Of a stretch of 48,872 nt of DNA, positions 1,143 to 21,254 are shown piece by piece. The stretch lies in NCBI GenBank assembly GCA_021371875.1, contig JAJFVH010000157.1:1-48872 (forward strand), read 5' to 3'. Under the pieces are notes generated by a model. The model was not told the origin of the DNA. It ran no database searches and saw only the letters and a program-made list of their open reading frames with translations. Source of the stretch: Bacteroidales bacterium. Lineage in GTDB: Bacteria; Bacteroidota; Bacteroidia; Bacteroidales; Paludibacteraceae. The position numbers were made by a program, and so were the translations under genes. Every line of letters begins with the position of its first letter. Within the stretch, counting starts at the first letter, position 1.

Positions 1143-1234
1143 TTTCCCTCTCACCTCTCGCCTCTCGCCTCTCGCCTGAAGTCGAGTCAGGTAAAGTTGA
1201 GACACAAGTAAAGTCGAGAGACAGCAAAGGGAAA
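1143..1234. repeat. Composite intergenic repeat, copy 1 of 3
   Basis: Tandem CTCTCGCC units are followed by GTCGAG-type units separated by AGGTAAA, between flanks TTTCCCTC and AAAGGGAAAAATT that can pair. Copies at 2508-2588 and 9349-9420 have the same order of parts. It fills most of the 201-bp gap between the GH26 and GH130 genes. No ORF of substance is present in it. Function unknown. Confidence 0.8.
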
Positions 1235-2635: not shown

Positions 2636-3919
2636 ATGAAGAAGCTATTTTTAAATAAACGAGACACTATCATTGTTACAGCATTCTTAGCCCCCCTTCG
2701 GGGGGTTGGGGGGCTTTTGTTTCTTTTCCTTTCGTTGTCCGTTTCTGCCCAAAAATTTGAGGGTCTGGCTCAAACGCCGCCCATGGGTTGGAACAGCTGG
2801 AACAAATTTGCCTGCGACGTAAGCGAAGACCTGATTCGCCAAACTGCCGATGCCATGGTTTCGTCAGGAATGAAAGATGCAGGATACGAATACATTGTGA
2901 TCGACGATTGCTGGCAGGTGAGCCGCGACTCACTCGGTTTTATCGTCCCTGATCCCGTTCGTTTTCCATCCGGGATAAAAGCGTTGGCTGATTACATTCA
3001 CTCCAAAGGATTGAAATTCGGCATTTATTCCTGTGCCGGCGACAAAACCTGTGGAGGTCGTCCTGCCGGACGCGGACACGAATACCAGGATGCTATTTCG
3101 TACGCCCAATGGGGTGTCGATTACCTGAAATACGACTGGTGCAATACCGAGAAACTGAATGCCGAAGGCGCTTACATCACCATGCGCGACGCACTTTACA
3201 GCGCCGGACGTCCGATTGTTTTCAGCCTTTGCGAATGGGGCGACAACAAACCCTGGCTCTGGGCCAAAAATGTGGGACATCTTTGGCGTACAACCGGAGA
3301 TATTTACAATTGCTTCGATTGTGTCTACGATCACGGAACCTGGAAATCGTGGGGTGTTATGCAAATTCTCGATAAACAGGACGGACTGCGCCAGTATGCC
3401 GGACCTGGACATTGGAACGACCCCGACATGATGCAGGTAGGTAACGGAATGCCACTCAACGAACAACGTGCACACTTTACAATGTGGGCTATGATTAATG
3501 CTCCGTTGATTGCCGGAAACGATTTGAGAAACATGACAACCGAAACCCTGAACGTTTTGACTAACAAAGAAGTAATTGCTGTAAATCAGGATTCGTTGGG
3601 AATTCAGGGATTCAAATATGAAGTGAAAGACAGCGTGGAAATATGGATGAAACCTTTGAAAAACAATGAATGGGTCATTACCTATCTGAACCGCAGCGTT
3701 TCACCAAAAACCATCAGCCAGGATTGGAAAATATTCTCGGTAACCGATGAATTAACCGGCAGAAAACTGGATACTACTGGAAAAGAAGTGTTCATCCTTC
3801 GTGATTTATGGCTGCAAAAAGCCGTCGGAGATACACGCAAAGCGTTGAGTGCAGTTATTCCGGGTCATGATGTTTTGTGCCTGAAAGTATCAAAAAAACC
3901 TGTTAAATCACGAAAATAA
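2636..3919 (+). CDS. GH27 alpha-galactosidase, secreted
   Basis: Removes alpha-1,6-galactosyl side chains from galactomannan or its oligosaccharides. The mature part begins near residue 39 with KFEGLAQTPPMGWNSWN, the standard GH27 opening. The nucleophile is Asp167 in LKYDWC and the acid/base is Asp222 in WRTTGD; the GPGHWNDPDMM motif follows. The C-terminal beta-sandwich completes a normal 427-residue length. Residues 1-38 read as a signal peptide, but its hydrophobic part (about 19-28, APLRGVGGLL) is encoded by a GC-rich palindromic repeat at 2690-2719, so the export signal appears to have been rebuilt around an insertion. The likely site of action is the periplasm or cell surface, ahead of import by the transporter at 4074. 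The family is certain; export is inferred. Confidence 0.94.
   Translation: MKKLFLNKRDTIIVTAFLAPLRGVGGLLFLFLSLSVSAQKFEGLAQTPPMGWNSWNKFACDVSEDLIRQTADAMVSSGMKDAGYEYIVIDDCWQVSRDSLGFIVPDPVRFPSGIKALADYIHSKGLKFGIYSCAGDKTCGGRPAGRGHEYQDAISYAQWGVDYLKYDWCNTEKLNAEGAYITMRDALYSAGRPIVFSLCEWGDNKPWLWAKNVGHLWRTTGDIYNCFDCVYDHGTWKSWGVMQILDKQDGLRQYAGPGHWNDPDMMQVGNGMPLNEQRAHFTMWAMINAPLIAGNDLRNMTTETLNVLTNKEVIAVNQDSLGIQGFKYEVKDSVEIWMKPLKNNEWVITYLNRSVSPKTISQDWKIFSVTDELTGRKLDTTGKEVFILRDLWLQKAVGDTRKALSAVIPGHDVLCLKVSKKPVKSRK
2690..2719. repeat. GC-rich palindromic repeat inside the GH27 signal peptide
   Basis: A C6-TTC-G6 hairpin (2691-2705) is followed by TTGGGGGGCTTTT, the same layout as copies at 6932-6966 and 8127-8158. 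It is in frame with the GH27 gene and encodes small and hydrophobic residues in the leader. Confidence 0.8.
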
Positions 3920-3988
3920 TCCCTCTTTAGAAACATATCAGGACTATACTTTAAAAGGTAAACCGGTAATTTTGTATTGAATTAAAAA

Positions 3989-4048
3989 AACGCCCTAACC
4001 CTTCAAAAGGGAAACGATAAAGTCCCTTTGAAGGGGTTTGGGGTCTAA
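3989..4048. repeat. Inverted pair of palindromic repeat units
   Basis: A reverse unit (CGCCCTAACCCTTCAAAAGGG) faces a forward unit (GTCCCTTTGAAGGGGTTTGGGG) across about 8 bases. The pair can fold into one long hairpin. It lies in the gap between GH27 and the symporter and ends about 26 bases before the symporter ATG, so it overlaps an apparent TTG start at 4038 that is not the real one. Confidence 0.7.
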
Positions 4049-4073
4049 TTATTTAAAAATCACAATTAATAAA

Positions 4074-5507
4074 ATGAATCTTCAAAAAATCAGTTTAAAA
4101 GAAAAAATCGGTTACGGTTTTGGTGATGCCGCATCTTCCATGTTCTGGAAGATTTTCGGAATGTATTCTTTGTTTTTTTATACCGATGTTTTCGGTATTA
4201 CGGCAGCTGCAGCCGGAACGATGTTTCTGGTTGCTCGTTTGTGGGATTCTTTTTTCGATGTTTTTGTAGGAATAATCAGCGACCGTACTAAAAGCCGCTA
4301 CGGAAAATATCGTCCATACTTATTATGGTTTGCCATTCCATTTGCCGTAATGGGCGCCATAACATTTTTTACCCCTGATTTCGGTCAAACAGCCAAATTA
4401 GTGTACGCATACATTACTTACTCATTGATGATGGTTGTGTACTCATTAATTAATGTGCCGTATGCTTCTTTGCTGGGAGTCATTTCTCCCGATCCAATAG
4501 AAAGAAATTCGCTTTCTTCTTATCGCATGTCATTCGCTTTCATTGGGAGCTTTATAACATTCATGTTGCTGCAACCTCTGATTGACTTTTTTGCTAAAAC
4601 GTTTGATCCCGAAAGTGTTGCTCAAACGTCTAAGGCTGTGGAATCCACCGTTAGCACTTCACCGGTTGGTTGGGTTATGGGAGTAGGAGCGATAGGACTT
4701 ATCTGCGTTATTTTGTTTTTGTTGTGTTTTAGTTGGACAAAGGAAAGGGTTACACAAATTGAAAGCGAAAAAAATGTTTCTGTCAGGCAGGATTTAAAAA
4801 ATTTGTTACGCAATGCTCCATGGTGGATTTTAGTTGCAACGGGTCTGGCTTCTTTACTCTTCAATGCCGTACGCGATAGTGTTGCTATCTTCTTTTTCAG
4901 AGATTACGTGCAAGTAAACTATAAAATGGCAGGAACAGGCTGGGATCTGACGACTATTTATTTCCTTGTAGGTCAGGCAGCCAACTTAATAGGGGTAATG
5001 GCCGCGCCTTCTATCTCAGCAAAATATGGTAAGAGAAAAACGTATATGATTGCCAGTTTAATGGCCGGATTATTAAGCATAGCTTTTTATTTCATTCCGA
5101 ACAATATCACCTGGATTCTGATTTTCCAATTCATGATTTCTATCTTCGCAGGATATGTTCTGCCATTGTTGTGGTCTATGTTTGCCGACATTGTGGATCA
5201 TCAGGAATTGCTTACAGGACGTCGTGCAACCGGATTAATTTTCTCATCCTCTTCCATGTCCCAAAAATTGGGTTGGGCATTAGGTACGGCGCTTAGTGCA
5301 TGGATTCTTGCCCTGTTCAAATATGCTCCAGAATTAGCGGTACAAAGTCCACAAACTATTTTTGGCGAACATATTTCGGTCAGCTTAATACCTGCAGTGT
5401 GCTGTTTATTGGCTTTTGTAGGCATGTATTTTTATCCGCTTTCAGATAAAAAAGTAAAGGAAAACACGGAACAACTTGAAGTAAAAAGAGCTAATTCAAA
5501 AGCTTAA
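4074..5507 (+). CDS. GPH-family sugar:cation symporter
   Basis: A cytoplasmic-membrane permease of the glycoside-pentoside-hexuronide group in the major facilitator superfamily; context predicts import of mannobiose, cellobiose or mannosylglucose. About 12 hydrophobic helices are visible over 477 residues. Family signatures are the N-terminal KEKIGYGFGDAASSMFW and the DRTKSRYGKYRPYLLW loop after helix 2. The ATG at 4074 is chosen because the upstream in-frame TTG at 4038 lies in a repeat and would add residues ahead of the conserved opening. The gene stands between the exported hydrolases and the cytoplasmic phosphorylases, and a transporter holds the same place in the B. fragilis cluster. 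A 13-bp hairpin follows the stop codon. The exact sugar is not readable from sequence. Confidence 0.9.
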   Translation: MNLQKISLKEKIGYGFGDAASSMFWKIFGMYSLFFYTDVFGITAAAAGTMFLVARLWDSFFDVFVGIISDRTKSRYGKYRPYLLWFAIPFAVMGAITFFTPDFGQTAKLVYAYITYSLMMVVYSLINVPYASLLGVISPDPIERNSLSSYRMSFAFIGSFITFMLLQPLIDFFAKTFDPESVAQTSKAVESTVSTSPVGWVMGVGAIGLICVILFLLCFSWTKERVTQIESEKNVSVRQDLKNLLRNAPWWILVATGLASLLFNAVRDSVAIFFFRDYVQVNYKMAGTGWDLTTIYFLVGQAANLIGVMAAPSISAKYGKRKTYMIASLMAGLLSIAFYFIPNNITWILIFQFMISIFAGYVLPLLWSMFADIVDHQELLTGRRATGLIFSSSSMSQKLGWALGTALSAWILALFKYAPELAVQSPQTIFGEHISVSLIPAVCCLLAFVGMYFYPLSDKKVKENTEQLEVKRANSKA

Positions 5508-5522
5508 TAAATATTAACTACT

Positions 5523-5552
5523 CCTTCTCTCCGTCGGTTGACGGAGAGAAGG
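5523..5552 (+). terminator. Strong intercistronic hairpin (terminator or processing site)
   Basis: A perfect 13-bp stem (5523-5535 with 5540-5552), 4-base loop, then TTCTTT. It fills the 61-bp gap between the symporter and GH94. As the operon continues, it may attenuate or stabilise rather than fully terminate. Confidence 0.5.
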
Positions 5553-5568
5553 TTCTTTAAAATAGAAA

Positions 5569-8046
5569 ATGCAATACGGACATTTTGATGATGAAAGACG
5601 TGAATACGTCATTACCAACCCGCGTACGCCATGGCCCTGGATTAATTACCTCGGCAATGAAGATTTTTTCAGTTTAGTTTCCAATACCGGTGGTGGATAT
5701 TCTTTTTACAAAGATGCCAAGTTCCGCCGTATAACACGCTACCGGTATAACAATGTACCGATGGACAGCGGCGGAAAATACTTTTACATCAACGATGGGG
5801 AATCGGTTTGGAGTCCAGGCTGGAAACCCTGTAAAACCGAGTTGGACAGTTACGAATGTCGTCACGGGATGAATTACACCACCATCAAAGGGATGAAAAA
5901 CGGCATCGAAGCCGAAGCGTTGTATTTCGTTCCTTTGAAAACATGGGCTGAAGTACAGAAACTCACTTTGCGAAATACAACAAACGAAGTCAAAACGCTT
6001 AAAATATTTTCTTTCGTTGAATGGGCTTTGTGGAATGCCGTTACGGATATGGAAAATTTCCAGCGTAATTTCTCTACCGGCGAAGTAGAAATTGAAGATT
6101 CAGTGATATACCACAAAACCGAATACAAAGAACGTCGCAATCATTACGCGTATTACTCGGTAAACGTACCCATGCAAGGCTTCGAAACCGACCGTGAAAC
6201 TTTCTTCGGATTGTACAACGGATTTGATGAACCGCAGACCGTGCTCGAAGGAGCGCCCCGCAATTCCGTTGCTCACGGCTGGTCGCCCGTTGCTTCGCAT
6301 TATGTGGAAGTAACTCTGCAACCGGGCGAATCGAAGGATTTGGTGTACGTGTTGGGTTATGTTGAAAACGCTGATGACGAGAAATGGGAAAGCAAAAACA
6401 TAATCAATAAAGTCAAAGCGAAAGCCACCATTGCCCGTTTCGATACGGCTGCAAAGGTTGATGCTGCTTTGGCTGAATTACGAGTCTATTGGGATAACTT
6501 ATTGAATGTTTTTACCATTAAAACAGGCGAAGAAAAGCTCGACCGTATGGTGAATATCTGGAACCAGTACCAATGTATGATTACCTTCTGCTTCTCGCGT
6601 TCGGCTTCGTTTTTCGAAAGCGGCATCGGGCGTGGCATGGGTTTCCGCGATTCCAACCAGGATTTAGTAGGTTTTGTGCATCAGATTCCCGAACGCGCCC
6701 GCGAACGTATCATCGACATTGCTTCCACGCAATTTCCAGACGGCGGTTGCTATCATCAATATCAACCTTTGACTAAAAAAGGGAACAACGAAATCGGTCA
6801 GGGATTTAATGATGATCCGCTGTGGCTGATCCTCGGAACCGTAAGTTATATCAAGGAATCGGGCGATTTTACTATTTTGGATGAAAAAGTTTCATTCAAC
6901 GATACTCTTGGTGAAGACGAAAGTAATTTTACATCCCCTCCTTCGGAGGGGCTTGGGGAGGCTTCTCTTTTCGACCATTTAACTGTGTCATTCGACCATG
7001 TAATCAATAATCTCGGACCTCACGGACTGCCGTTGATTGGCCGTGCCGACTGGAACGACTGTCTGAACCTGAACTGTTTCTCGAATGATCCTAACGAAAG
7101 TTTCCAAACGACGGAAAATAAATCCGAAGGTTCGCAGGCGGAAAGTTTGATGATTGCCGGTATGTTTGTAATGTACGGTGCCGATTATGCCGAACTCTGC
7201 CTCAAACTGGGTAAAACTGAAGAAGCTGCACGTGCTCAGGAGCTCGTTGAACAAATGAGCGAAGCGGTGAAAAAATACGGCTGGGACGGTGAATGGTTTA
7301 TCCGTGCTTACGATTACTACGGACGGAAAGTCGGTTCGAATGAAAATGAAGAAGGCAAAATTTTTATCGAATCGAACGGCTGGTGCACTATGGCAGGCAT
7401 TGGACTCGAAGAAGGCCTGGTAAGCAAGGCCTTGGATGCAGTAAAAGAACGGCTCGATTGCGAACACGGTATCGTGCTCAACAACCCTGCATTCACCAAA
7501 TATTATATCGAATACGGCGAAATTTCGAGCTATCCTCCAGGTTACAAGGAAAATGCAGGTATTTTCTGCCACAACAATCCCTGGATTATGATCGGCGAGA
7601 CCGTTCAGGGTCGTGGGGATCGCGCATGGGAATATTTCCGTAAAATCTGTCCGTCGTACACCGAAGAAAAAAGCGAACTCCACAAAGTGGAACCTTACGT
7701 GTATGCGCAAATGATAGCCGGCAAAGATGCATTCCGCCCCGGCGAAGCCAAAAACTCATGGCTTACAGGGACAGCCGCCTGGAATTATTACGCCATTACA
7801 CAATATATTCTCGGAATCCGCCCTTCGTACGATGGATTACAGATCAATCCATGTATTGCTCCCGAATGGAAAGGTTTCAGCGTGAAACGTCAGTTTCGCG
7901 GGGCAACTTACGAAATAGAGGTGAAAAATCCGAAGGGAAAAATGAAAGGCCTTTCTTCCATCAAAATTGATGGGAACCCGATTGAAGGTAATATTATTCC
8001 GTTGATGCCTGCAGGTGGAACCTACAAGGTAGAAGTGCTGATGTAA
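5569..8046 (+). CDS. GH94 cellobiose-phosphorylase-like enzyme
   Basis: Predicted cytoplasmic inverting phosphorylase yielding glucose 1-phosphate and glucose from cellobiose, which would be released from glucomannan. The first 270 or so residues form the GH94 beta-sandwich ([27 protein letters not shown]); the (alpha/alpha)6 catalytic barrel follows. Conserved segments are [12 protein letters not shown], the ADWNDCLNL motif that holds the general acid Asp (D494 or D497), the C-terminal [10 protein letters not shown] and [20 protein letters not shown]. At 825 residues it is close to usual length. Residues about 455-467 ([11 protein letters not shown]) are encoded by a GC-rich palindromic repeat and appear to be an extra surface loop just before the catalytic segment. 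There is no signal peptide. Its position between transporter and epimerase supports a role on imported disaccharides. GH94 also covers cellodextrin, laminaribiose and chitobiose phosphorylases, so substrate is inferred from context. Confidence 0.87.
6932..6966. repeat. GC-rich palindromic repeat inside the GH94 coding sequence
   Basis: The hairpin CCCCTCCTTCGGAGGGG (6935-6951) is followed by CTTGGGGAGGCTT. It is in frame and adds roughly 11-12 residues to the enzyme without breaking it. Confidence 0.8.
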
Positions 8047-8049
8047 CAA

Positions 8050-8160
8050 GCCCCCTAAATCCCCCGAAGGGGGACTCTGTGGCTTAAATCAGATATTGAA
8101 ATTTAAAAATGTAACTAACTAAGTTCCCCCCCCCCTTGGGGGAATTTAAAGAGGGCTTAT
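8050..8160. repeat. Two palindromic repeat units between GH94 and the epimerase
   Basis: A reverse unit (8050-8090; core CCCCCGAAGGGGG flanked by GCCCCCTAAAT and ACT) and a forward unit (8125-8158; C-run, TTGGGGGAATTT, AAAGAGGGCTT) sit about 35 bases apart. Together they occupy nearly all of the 114-bp gap. The second ends directly at the ATG of the next gene, so it could affect translation initiation. Confidence 0.75.
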
Positions 8161-9357
8161 ATGAAATATGAACTTTTAGAACTCAAACAAGAACTCAAAG
8201 AAGAGTTGACGCACAATATCCTTCCGTTCTGGATAGAAAAAATGGTAGATGAAAAAAATGGCGGTTTTTACGGACAAATCACAGGGAAAGATATGATTGT
8301 GCCCGATGCGCCTAAAGGTGGTATCCTGAATGCCCGTATTCTCTGGACTTTTTCATCGGCAACTTTACATCTTAAAAATCAGTTATACCTGGAGTATGCC
8401 AAACGAGCAAAAGTTTACATATTCGATCATTTTTTCGATAAGGAAAATGGCGGAACTTATTGGATGCTGAATGCTGACGGAACTCCTGCCGATACTAAAA
8501 AGCAAATCTACAGTCAGGCATTTTTTATATATGCTTTGGTCGAGTATTATCGTGCAACCGGAGATAATACTTGTCTTGATAAAGCCAAGGAGCTATTTCT
8601 ATTGATAGAAAAACATAGTTTCGATAAAGAAAAGAATGGCTATTTCGAAGCATACAGCAAGGATTGGGTGTTGCTCGACGACTTGCGCCTGAGCGACAAA
8701 GATGCCAACGAAAAGAAAACCATGAACACACATCTCCACATTTTGGAAGCTTATACCAACTTGTACCGGATGTGGAAAGACGAAGAACTTAGAAAACAAC
8801 TTAAAAACCTCGTTGAGATATTTCTGGATAAAATTATTAATAAAGATACGCATCATCTCGATTTGTTTTTCGACGAAAACTGGACATGCAAATCTACCTT
8901 GTTTTCTTACGGACACGATATTGAGGCCGCCTGGTTGCTCGACGAAGCGGCTTTAGTGCTTGGCGATACCGAGGTATTGAAAAAGGTACGCAACGTGGTG
9001 GTCAAAGTTGCCAATGCGGCAGCCGAAGGGACTCGACCCAACGGTTCCATTATCAACGAGAAAAACTACGCCACGGGACACATTGATACCAGCTGCGACT
9101 GGTGGCCGCAAGCCGAAGCCATGGTCGGCTTTTTCAATATTTACGAATTGACTCACAACGAGCATTATGCGCAAAAAACATTAGAAGCCTGGGAATTTAT
9201 TAAAGAGCATATCATCGACAAACAAAACGGTGAATGGCACTGGGCGGTATCGGCTGATGGTACCATCGATACGCTGAACGACAAAGCCGGTTTTTGGAAA
9301 TGTCCCTATCACAACAGCCGTATGTGTCTGGAATTAATGGAGCGAATTGCCCCCTAA
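8161..9357 (+). CDS. ce: Cellobiose 2-epimerase (AGE superfamily)
   Basis: Cytoplasmic enzyme that epimerises the reducing-end sugar at C2, turning mannobiose into mannosyl-beta-1,4-glucose for the GH130 enzyme, and also acting on cellobiose. The 398 residues form an (alpha/alpha)6 barrel. The histidines expected for catalysis are visible in NTHLHILEAY (His191/193), YGHDIEAAW (His252) and CPYHNSRMCLE (His384); GFYGQI near the N terminus and DTSCDWWPQAEAM are also family features. The forward repeat abuts the start codon, so there is little room for a normal leader. The last codons (GCC CCC TAA) belong to the third composite repeat, giving an IAP C-terminus like that of the GH26 protein. The family assignment is strong; N-acylglucosamine epimerase is unlikely given the neighbours. 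Confidence 0.93.
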   Translation: MKYELLELKQELKEELTHNILPFWIEKMVDEKNGGFYGQITGKDMIVPDAPKGGILNARILWTFSSATLHLKNQLYLEYAKRAKVYIFDHFFDKENGGTYWMLNADGTPADTKKQIYSQAFFIYALVEYYRATGDNTCLDKAKELFLLIEKHSFDKEKNGYFEAYSKDWVLLDDLRLSDKDANEKKTMNTHLHILEAYTNLYRMWKDEELRKQLKNLVEIFLDKIINKDTHHLDLFFDENWTCKSTLFSYGHDIEAAWLLDEAALVLGDTEVLKKVRNVVVKVANAAAEGTRPNGSIINEKNYATGHIDTSCDWWPQAEAMVGFFNIYELTHNEHYAQKTLEAWEFIKEHIIDKQNGEWHWAVSADGTIDTLNDKAGFWKCPYHNSRMCLELMERIAP

Positions 9358-9420
9358 TCCCTCTCGCCTCTCGCCTGAAGTCGAGACAGGTAAAGTAGAG
9401 ACACGGCAGGGGGACTTAAG
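9349..9420. repeat. Composite intergenic repeat, copy 3 of 3
   Basis: The ends GCCCCCTAATCCC and GGGGGACTT enclose CTCTCGCC units and GTCGAGAC-AGGTAAA-GTAGAGAC. It begins inside the epimerase gene and supplies its stop codon. It occupies about half of the 134-bp gap before GH5. Confidence 0.8.
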
Positions 9421-9491
9421 ATAGTTTTGATATTTAGTGCTTAAAAGCAAATACTATTTACAATATTAATGTACAATAACATACAATCATT

Positions 9492-10508
9492 ATGAAATCA
9501 CAAAAACAAACATTTTTCAACTTCCCCATGGAGAAGTTAGGGGGCTTCTTTCGGAGCTTTATCCTCTCGATGCTTATTATCAGCTTGTTTTCCTCATTTA
9601 AAGCGCCAAAGAATTCGCCTGTGGCTTTAAATGGTAAACTACAAGTGGTTGGCACGCAACTCTCGAACCAAAAAGGGGAAGCGCTTATGTTGCGCGGAGC
9701 AAGTTTCGGGTGGCACAATCTGTGGCCGCGTTTTTATAACAAGCAAGCAGTGGCCTGGCTGGCTACCGACTGGAAATGTAATGTGGTACGTGCTTCGATG
9801 GGCGTTGGTCTCGACGATTCCTACCTCGAAAATCCTGAATATGCTTTAAAATGCGTTACCAATGTTGTTGATGGAGCTATCAAACAAGGGATTTATGTAT
9901 TGATTGATTTTCACAGCCATAAGTTGCATACCGCCGAAGCCAAAACATTCTTCACCCAAATGGCAACGAAATATAAGGACGCTCCTAACGTGATTTACGA
10001 AATCTGGAACGAACCCGATTACTACACATGGCCTGAGGTGAAAGCTTATTCTGAAGAGTTAATTAAAACGATTCGCGCTATTGATCCCGACAATATTATT
10101 TTGGTCGGCTCTCCACATTGGGACCAGGACATCCATTTGGTAGCCGAAGATCCTATTTTGAACCAGACCAATATCATGTACACCATGCACTTCTACGCCG
10201 GTACACACAAACAATGGTTGCGCGACCGGACGGATGCTGCCATAGCCAAAGGAATCCCCATTTTCGTTTCGGAATGTGCCGGCATGGAAGCCACAGGCGA
10301 CGGCCCGGTGGACCAAGCGGAATGGAAAGCTTTTCTCGACTGGATGGAAGCCGGTAAAATCAGCTGGATCGTGTGGTCGGTATCCGATAAAAACGAAACC
10401 TGCTCAATGTTGCTCCCACGGGCTTCGGCAAAGGGAAACTGGACCGATGACCTGCTTAAAAGCTGGGGAAAAATAAGCCGGGAAAGTATCAGAAAATTGA
10501 ATAAGTAA
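9492..10508 (+). CDS. GH5 endo-beta-glycanase (glucanase/mannanase), exported
   Basis: A retaining endo-hydrolase, probably cutting the beta-1,4 backbone of glucomannan. The catalytic domain runs from about residue 48 (LQVVGTQLSNQKGEALMLRG) to the end. The acid/base Glu174 is in VIYEIWNEP and the nucleophile Glu261 in PIFVSECAG; DFHSH and HFYAGTH are typical GH5 strands. The ATDWKCNVVRASMGV pattern suggests subfamily 2, mostly endoglucanases. An N-terminal leader with hydrophobic stretch FILSMLIISLF suggests export. Residues 10-20 before it come from a palindromic repeat at 9519-9551. It is the last enzyme gene of the operon, about 300 bp before the AraC-type regulator. Glucanase versus mannanase specificity is not settled by sequence. 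Confidence 0.88.
   Translation: MKSQKQTFFNFPMEKLGGFFRSFILSMLIISLFSSFKAPKNSPVALNGKLQVVGTQLSNQKGEALMLRGASFGWHNLWPRFYNKQAVAWLATDWKCNVVRASMGVGLDDSYLENPEYALKCVTNVVDGAIKQGIYVLIDFHSHKLHTAEAKTFFTQMATKYKDAPNVIYEIWNEPDYYTWPEVKAYSEELIKTIRAIDPDNIILVGSPHWDQDIHLVAEDPILNQTNIMYTMHFYAGTHKQWLRDRTDAAIAKGIPIFVSECAGMEATGDGPVDQAEWKAFLDWMEAGKISWIVWSVSDKNETCSMLLPRASAKGNWTDDLLKSWGKISRESIRKLNK
9519..9551. repeat. Palindromic repeat inside the GH5 leader sequence
   Basis: CTTCCCCATGGAGAAG is a near palindrome and is followed by TTAGGGGGCTTCTT, the layout of the other repeat copies. It is more diverged than those at 2690 and 6932. It is in frame and encodes NFPMEKLGGFF. Confidence 0.6.
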
Positions 10509-20983: not shown

Positions 20984-21254
20984 GCATTGGTTCACTTTCG
21001 TTTTCGACGAAAAGTGATTAAAAGGGAATCAGGTGTAAGTCCTGAACAGTCCCGCTGCTGTAAGCTCTAAGCTCCTCCAAACCTCCCCAATAGGGAGGCT
21101 TAAAGAGAGAAAACGTATTGAACAACACTTTGCCACTGAAGCCTCCCCAATCTATCCGGAAAAGGGGCTCTGTTTCTCCCCTTCGGGGAGATTAAGAGGG
21201 GCTTTCGGGAAGGCGTTCAAATACGGGAGTAAGTCAGAAGACCTACCAAGATGC
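20984..21254 (+). promoter_or_regulatory. Cobalamin riboswitch
   Basis: Recognised from the conserved core AAAGGGAATCAGGTG (21020-21034) through AGTCCTGAACAGTCCCGC to CTGCTGTAAGC, and from the B12 box AGTCAGAAGACCTACC (21232-21247). The outer stem is GCATTGGT (20984-20991) with ACCAAGATGC (21245-21254). A hairpin CACTTTCG/CGAAAAGTG follows the outer stem. The TGCCACTG and CGGGAAGGCG arms near 21131 and 21206 are also normal parts, but they are pushed apart by a repeat insertion. It controls the BtuB-like receptor at 21383. Adenosylcobalamin-type ligands are expected; on or off mechanism was not resolved. Confidence 0.9.
21071..21206. repeat. Palindromic repeat units inside the riboswitch periphery
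   Basis: A partial unit (ACCTCCCCAATAGGGAGGCTTAAAG, about 21080-21105) and an inverted pair (21139-21204: AAGCCTCCCCAAT..CCGGAAAAGGGG then CTCCCCTTCGGGGAG..GAGGGGCTT) match the units in the mannan operon. The inverted pair sits exactly between the TGCCACTG and CGGGAAGGCG riboswitch arms. Confidence 0.75.

Follow-up and report, generated by a model that had tools for sequence, protein, structure and literature searches.

Palindromic repeats within sugar-enzyme genes of a Bacteroidales genome as probable ends of in-frame, homing-like DUF559 nuclease elements

Inteins with homing endonucleases lie in frame at conserved sites of housekeeping genes, and their nucleases form lineages by site. Palindromes can be protein-coding as well, although we know of no mobiliser for those of Rickettsia. 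These Rickettsia palindromic elements (RPE) are described as units of ~150 bp that occur in frame in many unrelated genes (PMC10969869, citing Ogata 2000, 2002). Intragenic REPs are reported from several species (PMC3733652), and ShiLan is described as an unspliced homing insertion in a phage methylase (PMC11855218). A search covering open-access literature turned up no description of DUF559 elements that have palindromic ends, and the word "DUF" is absent from the main text of PMC3733652.

Here, we analyze a window of 48,872 nucleotides (i.e. the whole stretch of DNA under study, contig C51) from a Bacteroidales assembly of 2.97 Mb that is 88%-complete. A sequence-only reading of this DNA had placed copies of one palindrome in frame in three sugar-enzyme genes, and reading the sequence again locates all three copies, each in frame, where they had been described. 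Those of GH27 and GH5 are placed in export signals by inspection of the sequence. The genes and repeat copies of the window are as follows:

2636..3919, plus strand: GH27-type alpha-galactosidase gene (Melibiase_2, Pfam)
2690..2719, plus strand: palindrome in the N-terminal signal region of GH27, residues APLRGVGGLL
5569..8046, plus strand: GH94 cellobiose-phosphorylase-type gene (Glyco_hydro_94, Pfam)
6931..6962, plus strand: 32-nt palindrome within a 42-nt insertion of GH94
8045..8081, minus strand: intergenic palindrome copy at the end of GH94
9344..9420, minus strand: copy with an expanded hairpin loop, after an epimerase gene (weak model match, 17.1 bits)
9492..10508, plus strand: GH5 cellulase-family gene (Pfam)
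9519..9551, plus strand: diverged palindrome in the N-terminal region of GH5
21067..21205: inverted pair without nuclease (21067-21105, minus strand, 19.7 bits; 21169-21205, plus strand, 30.1 bits)

A 61-nt repeat (CTCTCGCCTCTCGCC..GTCGAGACAGG), found at window positions 1152-1212, 2519-2579, and 9351-9411, resembles the palindrome with an expanded loop.

Comparison with orthologues suggests that the palindromes were inserted, which is well supported for GH94, fairly for GH27, and least for GH5. In GH94, the proposed insertion holds, with a length of 14 residues (42 nt) and not about 11 as first estimated. Orthologues keeping these residues with unrelated DNA would have argued against an insertion; the residues are unique to the window protein and missing in 13/13 orthologues aligned, which are the best matches with 32–39% paralogues left out (23/60 genomes, own included, have any match). 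The same stretch is the main insertion relative to PDB 3qde_A. One GH94 orthologue (L042, genome G033) has another insertion, of 32 residues near residue 551, without an obvious palindrome. In GH27, 38 residues precede QKF vs 20–22 in orthologues, i.e. about 16 extra N-terminal residues, as judged from the 5/12 orthologues with N-termini readable through to QK(F/Y) and with starts assigned by reading. The GH5 insertion is the least sure because the surplus before the first aligned residue is 11 residues over one orthologue (L094) and 7 over another (L091), and the copy itself is diverged (22.6 bits, E 0.03 over the whole genome). This GH5 palindrome holds an in-frame ATG (9528-9530) that might supply an alternative start.

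The repeat is dispersed, as had been suggested. A model, R1, was built from 16 alignment rows that represent 15 copies (the 8045-8081 copy was entered twice), and this alignment gives the consensus AAGTCCCCCTTCGGGGGATTTAGGGGGCTT, with variants. Because R1 was seeded with, among others, the GH27 and GH94 copies, the scores it gives these two are not independent evidence. The genome holds at least 148 matches at E up to 10, a lower bound because 150 of 662 first-look candidates were scored. Within 291,688 bases, i.e. the window and 60 stretches selected for holding hits, we find 162 matches at E up to 1, and 132 of them reach ≥20 bits. The repeat is also commoner than expected by chance: a loose pattern has 43 + 21 matches on the two strands, a count that includes several overlapping counts of one place, vs 2 + 0 for the reversed pattern. 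Many copies are paired in inverted orientation, with the minus copy first and some tens of bases between them, such that the family shares with REPs the character of a high-copy short hairpin found as singles and inverted pairs. One identical 24.4-bit copy sequence is present in 10 loci read (e.g. L175 82-117), mostly near contig ends. In L175 and L217, the identical copies lie within a common stretch that is followed by different sequence, which suggests that the repeated unit is longer and interrupts the assembly.

Many of the copies are coding. In the window and the 60 stretches, 26 copies lie within 15 ORFs, counting copies of ≥20 bits in mechanically defined ORFs of ≥375 aa and at ≥30 nt from either ORF end; 4 of these copies, including that of GH27, are within 70 nt of the assigned start. 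Twelve of the 15 ORFs (GH27 and GH94 included) were assigned to families, and 3 are unscanned. Hosts over curated NCBIfam cut-offs are IleRS, ValRS, AlaRS, LysRS, PurL, and MutS2, and further hosts include a CarA-CarB junction, a SpoIID protein, a BT4734-like protein, and an FAD/Fe-S oxidoreductase. As such, the repeat is not confined to catabolic enzyme genes, where the sequence-only reading had seen it. Two IleRS inserts coincide with gaps in the alignment to PDB 8c8w_A. In one locus of the same genome (L209 3-2786, contig C205), CarA and CarB domains share one open frame across palindrome peptides, and a subunit fusion through repeat insertion is possible. The likeness to Rickettsia palindromic elements that had been noted is borne out: the palindromes are in frame in unrelated protein genes, and orthologues without them exist for GH94 and ValRS.

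The same reading had the repeat spreading without a visible transposase, and in doing so overlooked that these palindromes also bracket a DUF559 endonuclease, a candidate for the enzyme. Specifically, IleRS and ValRS of this genome carry a DUF559 domain in the host frame that is enclosed by two inverted copies, while its MetH carries an in-frame DUF559 too, with ends of another palindrome type. In all three hosts, the insert is a near-complete PD-(D/E)xK-type endonuclease domain, and that of ValRS matches PDB 3hrl_A, an endonuclease-like protein, at E 1e-21.

The inserts of the window resemble the ends of these elements. The GH94 palindrome equals the right end of the ValRS DUF559 element of its own genome over 32/32 nt, and a 10-residue peptide is common to both; unlike the R1 score of the GH94 copy, this match to another gene is independent evidence. 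Over 29 nt, the intergenic copy at 8045-8081 matches exactly how the IleRS DUF559 element ends on its right side, and the GH27 palindrome is closest to the right end of a PurL-type element (22/23 nt), while the GH5 palindrome has no strong match to any DUF559-element end compared. Because of the GH94 identity and the family likeness of the others, the window inserts are best seen as solo ends, with good evidence for GH94 and by family likeness for GH27 and GH5. That they are ordinary variable protein loops or assembly artefacts is extremely improbable. The sites are indeed loops in alignments and several of the genomes are metagenome bins, but an identity of 32/32 nt between unrelated genes, and the presence of such inserts in isolate genomes, already contradict this reading.

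In-frame DUF559 inserts are also found well beyond this genome. The domain is present in 56/100 genomes searched (own included), and of the 110 matches listed at E ≤2.1e-21, 43 belong to frames at least 500 aa long and the other 67 to frames no longer than 250 aa. Three of the 43 long-frame inserts are from the genome of the window and 36 from other members of its genus. Together they occupy 42 ORFs, assigned to host families from sequence clusters and NCBIfam/Pfam scans, that include IleRS/ValRS (10), MetH (10), LeuRS (9), PurL (8), type ISP restriction-modification proteins (2), a DNA methylase, a DUF5107-TPR protein, and UvrA. Pfam DUF559 (PF04480) matched in frame in 42/42 host ORFs, and matches exceeded the model's cut-off in several of the scans. 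The catalytic-type residues are kept, with D42 and E53 in 43/43 inserts, D55 in 41/43, and H59 in 42/43; we take D42, E53, and D55 to be the metal site of the PD-(D/E)xK fold. Two type ISP restriction-modification proteins (L257 and L277) are packed with many palindrome-like peptides around the DUF559 insert.

Named genomes hold at least 574 confirmed DUF559 loci. Among the best 80, which were inspected, 68 embed DUF559 in a longer open frame, with >120 further residues to one or both sides (five of the 68 are N-terminal), a biased set because the query was built from inserts. Eight loci from isolate genomes were compared with NCBIfam; LeuRS (3), RecG (2), IleRS, and MetH are over cut-off, and the eighth, a RecB-like helicase, is below it. 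A viral-contig carrier was also considered: viral contigs gave a separate set of 80 loci, and in the nine of these that were read, the sole DUF559 in a frame of >1000 aa (L402) is probably host DNA, not viral, because its frame reads as ValRS.

In-frame nuclease domains at conserved sites of essential genes would also be seen with inteins, or with self-splicing introns, that carry an unusual nuclease. We regard this as very improbable, given that no intein domain is present in the full Pfam tables of 10/42 DUF559 hosts or among the 25 of 68 Pfam families inspected for all 42 hosts, and that no group I/II intron matched Rfam at gathering score in five loci. With no splicing domain and no intron found, the insert should stay in the protein. 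In 9/9 genomes picked from LeuRS carriers, all leuS matches lie in one ORF of 1074–1176 aa, with no second copy. An AlphaFold model of ValRS with its insert, based on a 5-row alignment of named loci, has a mean pLDDT of 47.7 and a pTM of 0.32, values too low for the model to be usable.

The distribution of the inserts among sites and genomes bears on whether they still move. The inserts could be mostly ancient and vertical, lost in some lineages, with a DUF559 that is tolerated or domesticated and no longer mobile. Consistent with this, DUF559 sequences group by host gene (10 site-label changes in the DUF559 tree, where the least possible is 9 and the shuffled mean 28.5), and LeuRS inserts keep profile position 233-234/238-240 in 8/9 genomes. 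In addition, insert similarity exceeds host similarity in only 6/121 within-site pairs, by 4.9 points at most in the ranked output, so that recent transfer is not the general pattern. Other findings argue against ancient insertion. At the ValRS site, 30 loci aligned show DUF559 in 3, palindrome-only "scars" in 3, and neither in 24, i.e. carriers are few and patchy, and solo ends occupy the very same site. The MetH proteins of genomes G000 and G024 are 96% identical over 879 residues and carry, at the same place, inserts that are 54% identical over 100 residues. Lastly, the DUF5107 insert and one LeuRS insert are nested in the MetH lineage. We consider mostly ancient insertion fairly unlikely, and not exclusive, as it is compatible with the best explanation for older copies.

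The ValRS tree allows either a separate gain or one gain with repeated loss: carrier G009 falls with non-carriers G005 and G007 (95/91 and 99/96), and carriers G000 and G024 fall together (100/99), apart from G009. No target-site duplication is visible at this site, where the empty sites are too diverged to recover an exact one. By reading, the inserts of ValRS, LeuRS, and the first of IleRS directly precede ATTRPET, FTTRADT, or TTTPWT motifs. The inserts thus share with homing elements the kept catalytic-type residues, a conserved site, and the coexistence of occupied and empty alleles.

Ends and nuclease are statistically associated. An inverted repeat from flank to flank with a score of ≥14 is present in 32/43 inserts, vs at most 12 in shuffles; in the other 11/43, one of which is masked, the stretch tested yields no strong repeat of this kind. 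End similarity tracks nuclease similarity between different genes (rho 0.42, 766 pairs; the maximum of 200 permutations is 0.105), and the same relation by site group has a rho of 0.66, with 0/5000 permutations as high.

These associations have to be weighed against a REP/REPIN family that is moved by RAYT, a Y1 tyrosine transposase, with DUF559 as a passenger between two REPs. Short palindromes and inverted pairs fit such a family, Y1 genes are present in 49/60 genomes (own included, with two), and known intragenic REPs include those in tRNA synthetases and uvrA, as described in PMC3733652. However, the hairpins immediately next to both Y1 genes of this genome are of other kinds, and one related palindrome lies ~1 kb from one of these genes. 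RAYT is not favoured as the mobiliser: by reading, the repeat of the window flanks 0/2 Y1 genes here, and 2/19 in the genus have C4..G4 palindromes on both sides. We judge the passenger scenario unlikely. The hairpins of the two Y1 genes (L132 1190-2140 and L133 390-1800) are their own, of the GGTGCGTAGCACC type and the CCCGAAGGG type.

By contrast, C4..G4 palindromes lie on both sides of 13/20 free-standing DUF559 genes, vs 2/19 Y1 genes (Fisher p 0.0008), based on 20 of 67 short-frame DUF559 genes and 19 usable Y1 genes from the same genus; 7/20 DUF559 genes are without them on both sides. When inverted repeats of every kind are counted, DUF559 and Y1 genes have them about equally often (11/20 and 11/19). 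Among 35 genus members, with 112 candidates per genome scored and genomes taken without kinship correction, genomes richer in DUF559 tend to hold more repeats (rho 0.55, p 0.0007), and no such trend is seen for Y1 (rho 0.22, p 0.21). The counts of DUF559 and Y1 are themselves correlated (rho 0.61), and the partial correlations with repeat number are 0.54 for DUF559 and −0.18 for Y1.

We therefore think it probable that the repeats are the ends, or solo or paired end derivatives, of palindrome-ended, non-splicing, homing-like nuclease elements. This explanation brings together the element structure and in-frame state, the ValRS site that is unoccupied in most relatives, the recurring sites, the lineages clustered by site, the ends that co-vary with the nuclease, and the kept catalytic-type residues. 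From the sites, lineages, and residues we infer homing-like copying, such that mobility and cutting activity of the DUF559 elements are predictions from sequence. A full element consists of a palindromic end (~30 nt), a linker, a DUF559 domain (~105 residues), and an inverted palindromic end, and its reading frame continues that of the host gene, such that the host protein has one more domain. The nuclease, acting from within the host protein or supplied by a free-standing gene, would cut either its own ends or alleles that lack an insert, and the element would be copied in during repair, while new genes would be reached by rare moves. Solo or paired ends as in GH94, GH27, and GH5 could arise where the nuclease is lost or a single end is captured, and selection would spare only in-frame, stop-free insertions in loops that tolerate them. 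The sequence-only reading as a whole is partly supported.

The chances are slightly better than even that this is a new class of mobile element in Bacteroidota, i.e. palindrome-ended DUF559 elements that invade essential genes in frame and persist as an unspliced permanent domain, with solo ends as peptide-coding parasites at >100 places of one genome. If so, essential enzymes (LeuRS, ValRS, IleRS, MetH, and RecG) can carry a selfish nuclease domain unspliced, and odd tails and loops in Bacteroidota protein annotations would be explained. A nuclease physically joined to comparable ends also represents a testable mobiliser for protein-coding palindromes.

Like RPE, the repeat is a palindromic unit found in frame across a genome in many genes that are unrelated to one another (PMC10969869). 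It differs from RPE, as compared by description only, in that it forms singles of ~30 nt and its ends bracket DUF559, whereas RPE are given as ~150 bp in PMC10969869, in a description that mentions no nuclease. With the REP/REPIN-RAYT system as described (PMC3733652, PMC6006769), it shares short hairpins, inverted pairs, some in-gene copies, and a repeat-flanked candidate enzyme gene. The enzyme here is, however, a PD-(D/E)xK-type nuclease and RAYT an HUH Y1 transposase, and most Y1 genes tested carry hairpins other than this repeat. As with inteins, the elements lie in frame at conserved sites of housekeeping genes and their nucleases form lineages by site, but no splicing domain was found here and the product should keep the insert. 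Finally, ShiLan as described (PMC11855218) is likewise an unspliced in-frame insertion with a homing-like distribution and a hidden endonuclease. That account gives it an HNH nuclease in another frame of a phage gene, and describes no palindromic ends, whereas here DUF559 is in the host frame of essential bacterial genes, between palindromic ends.
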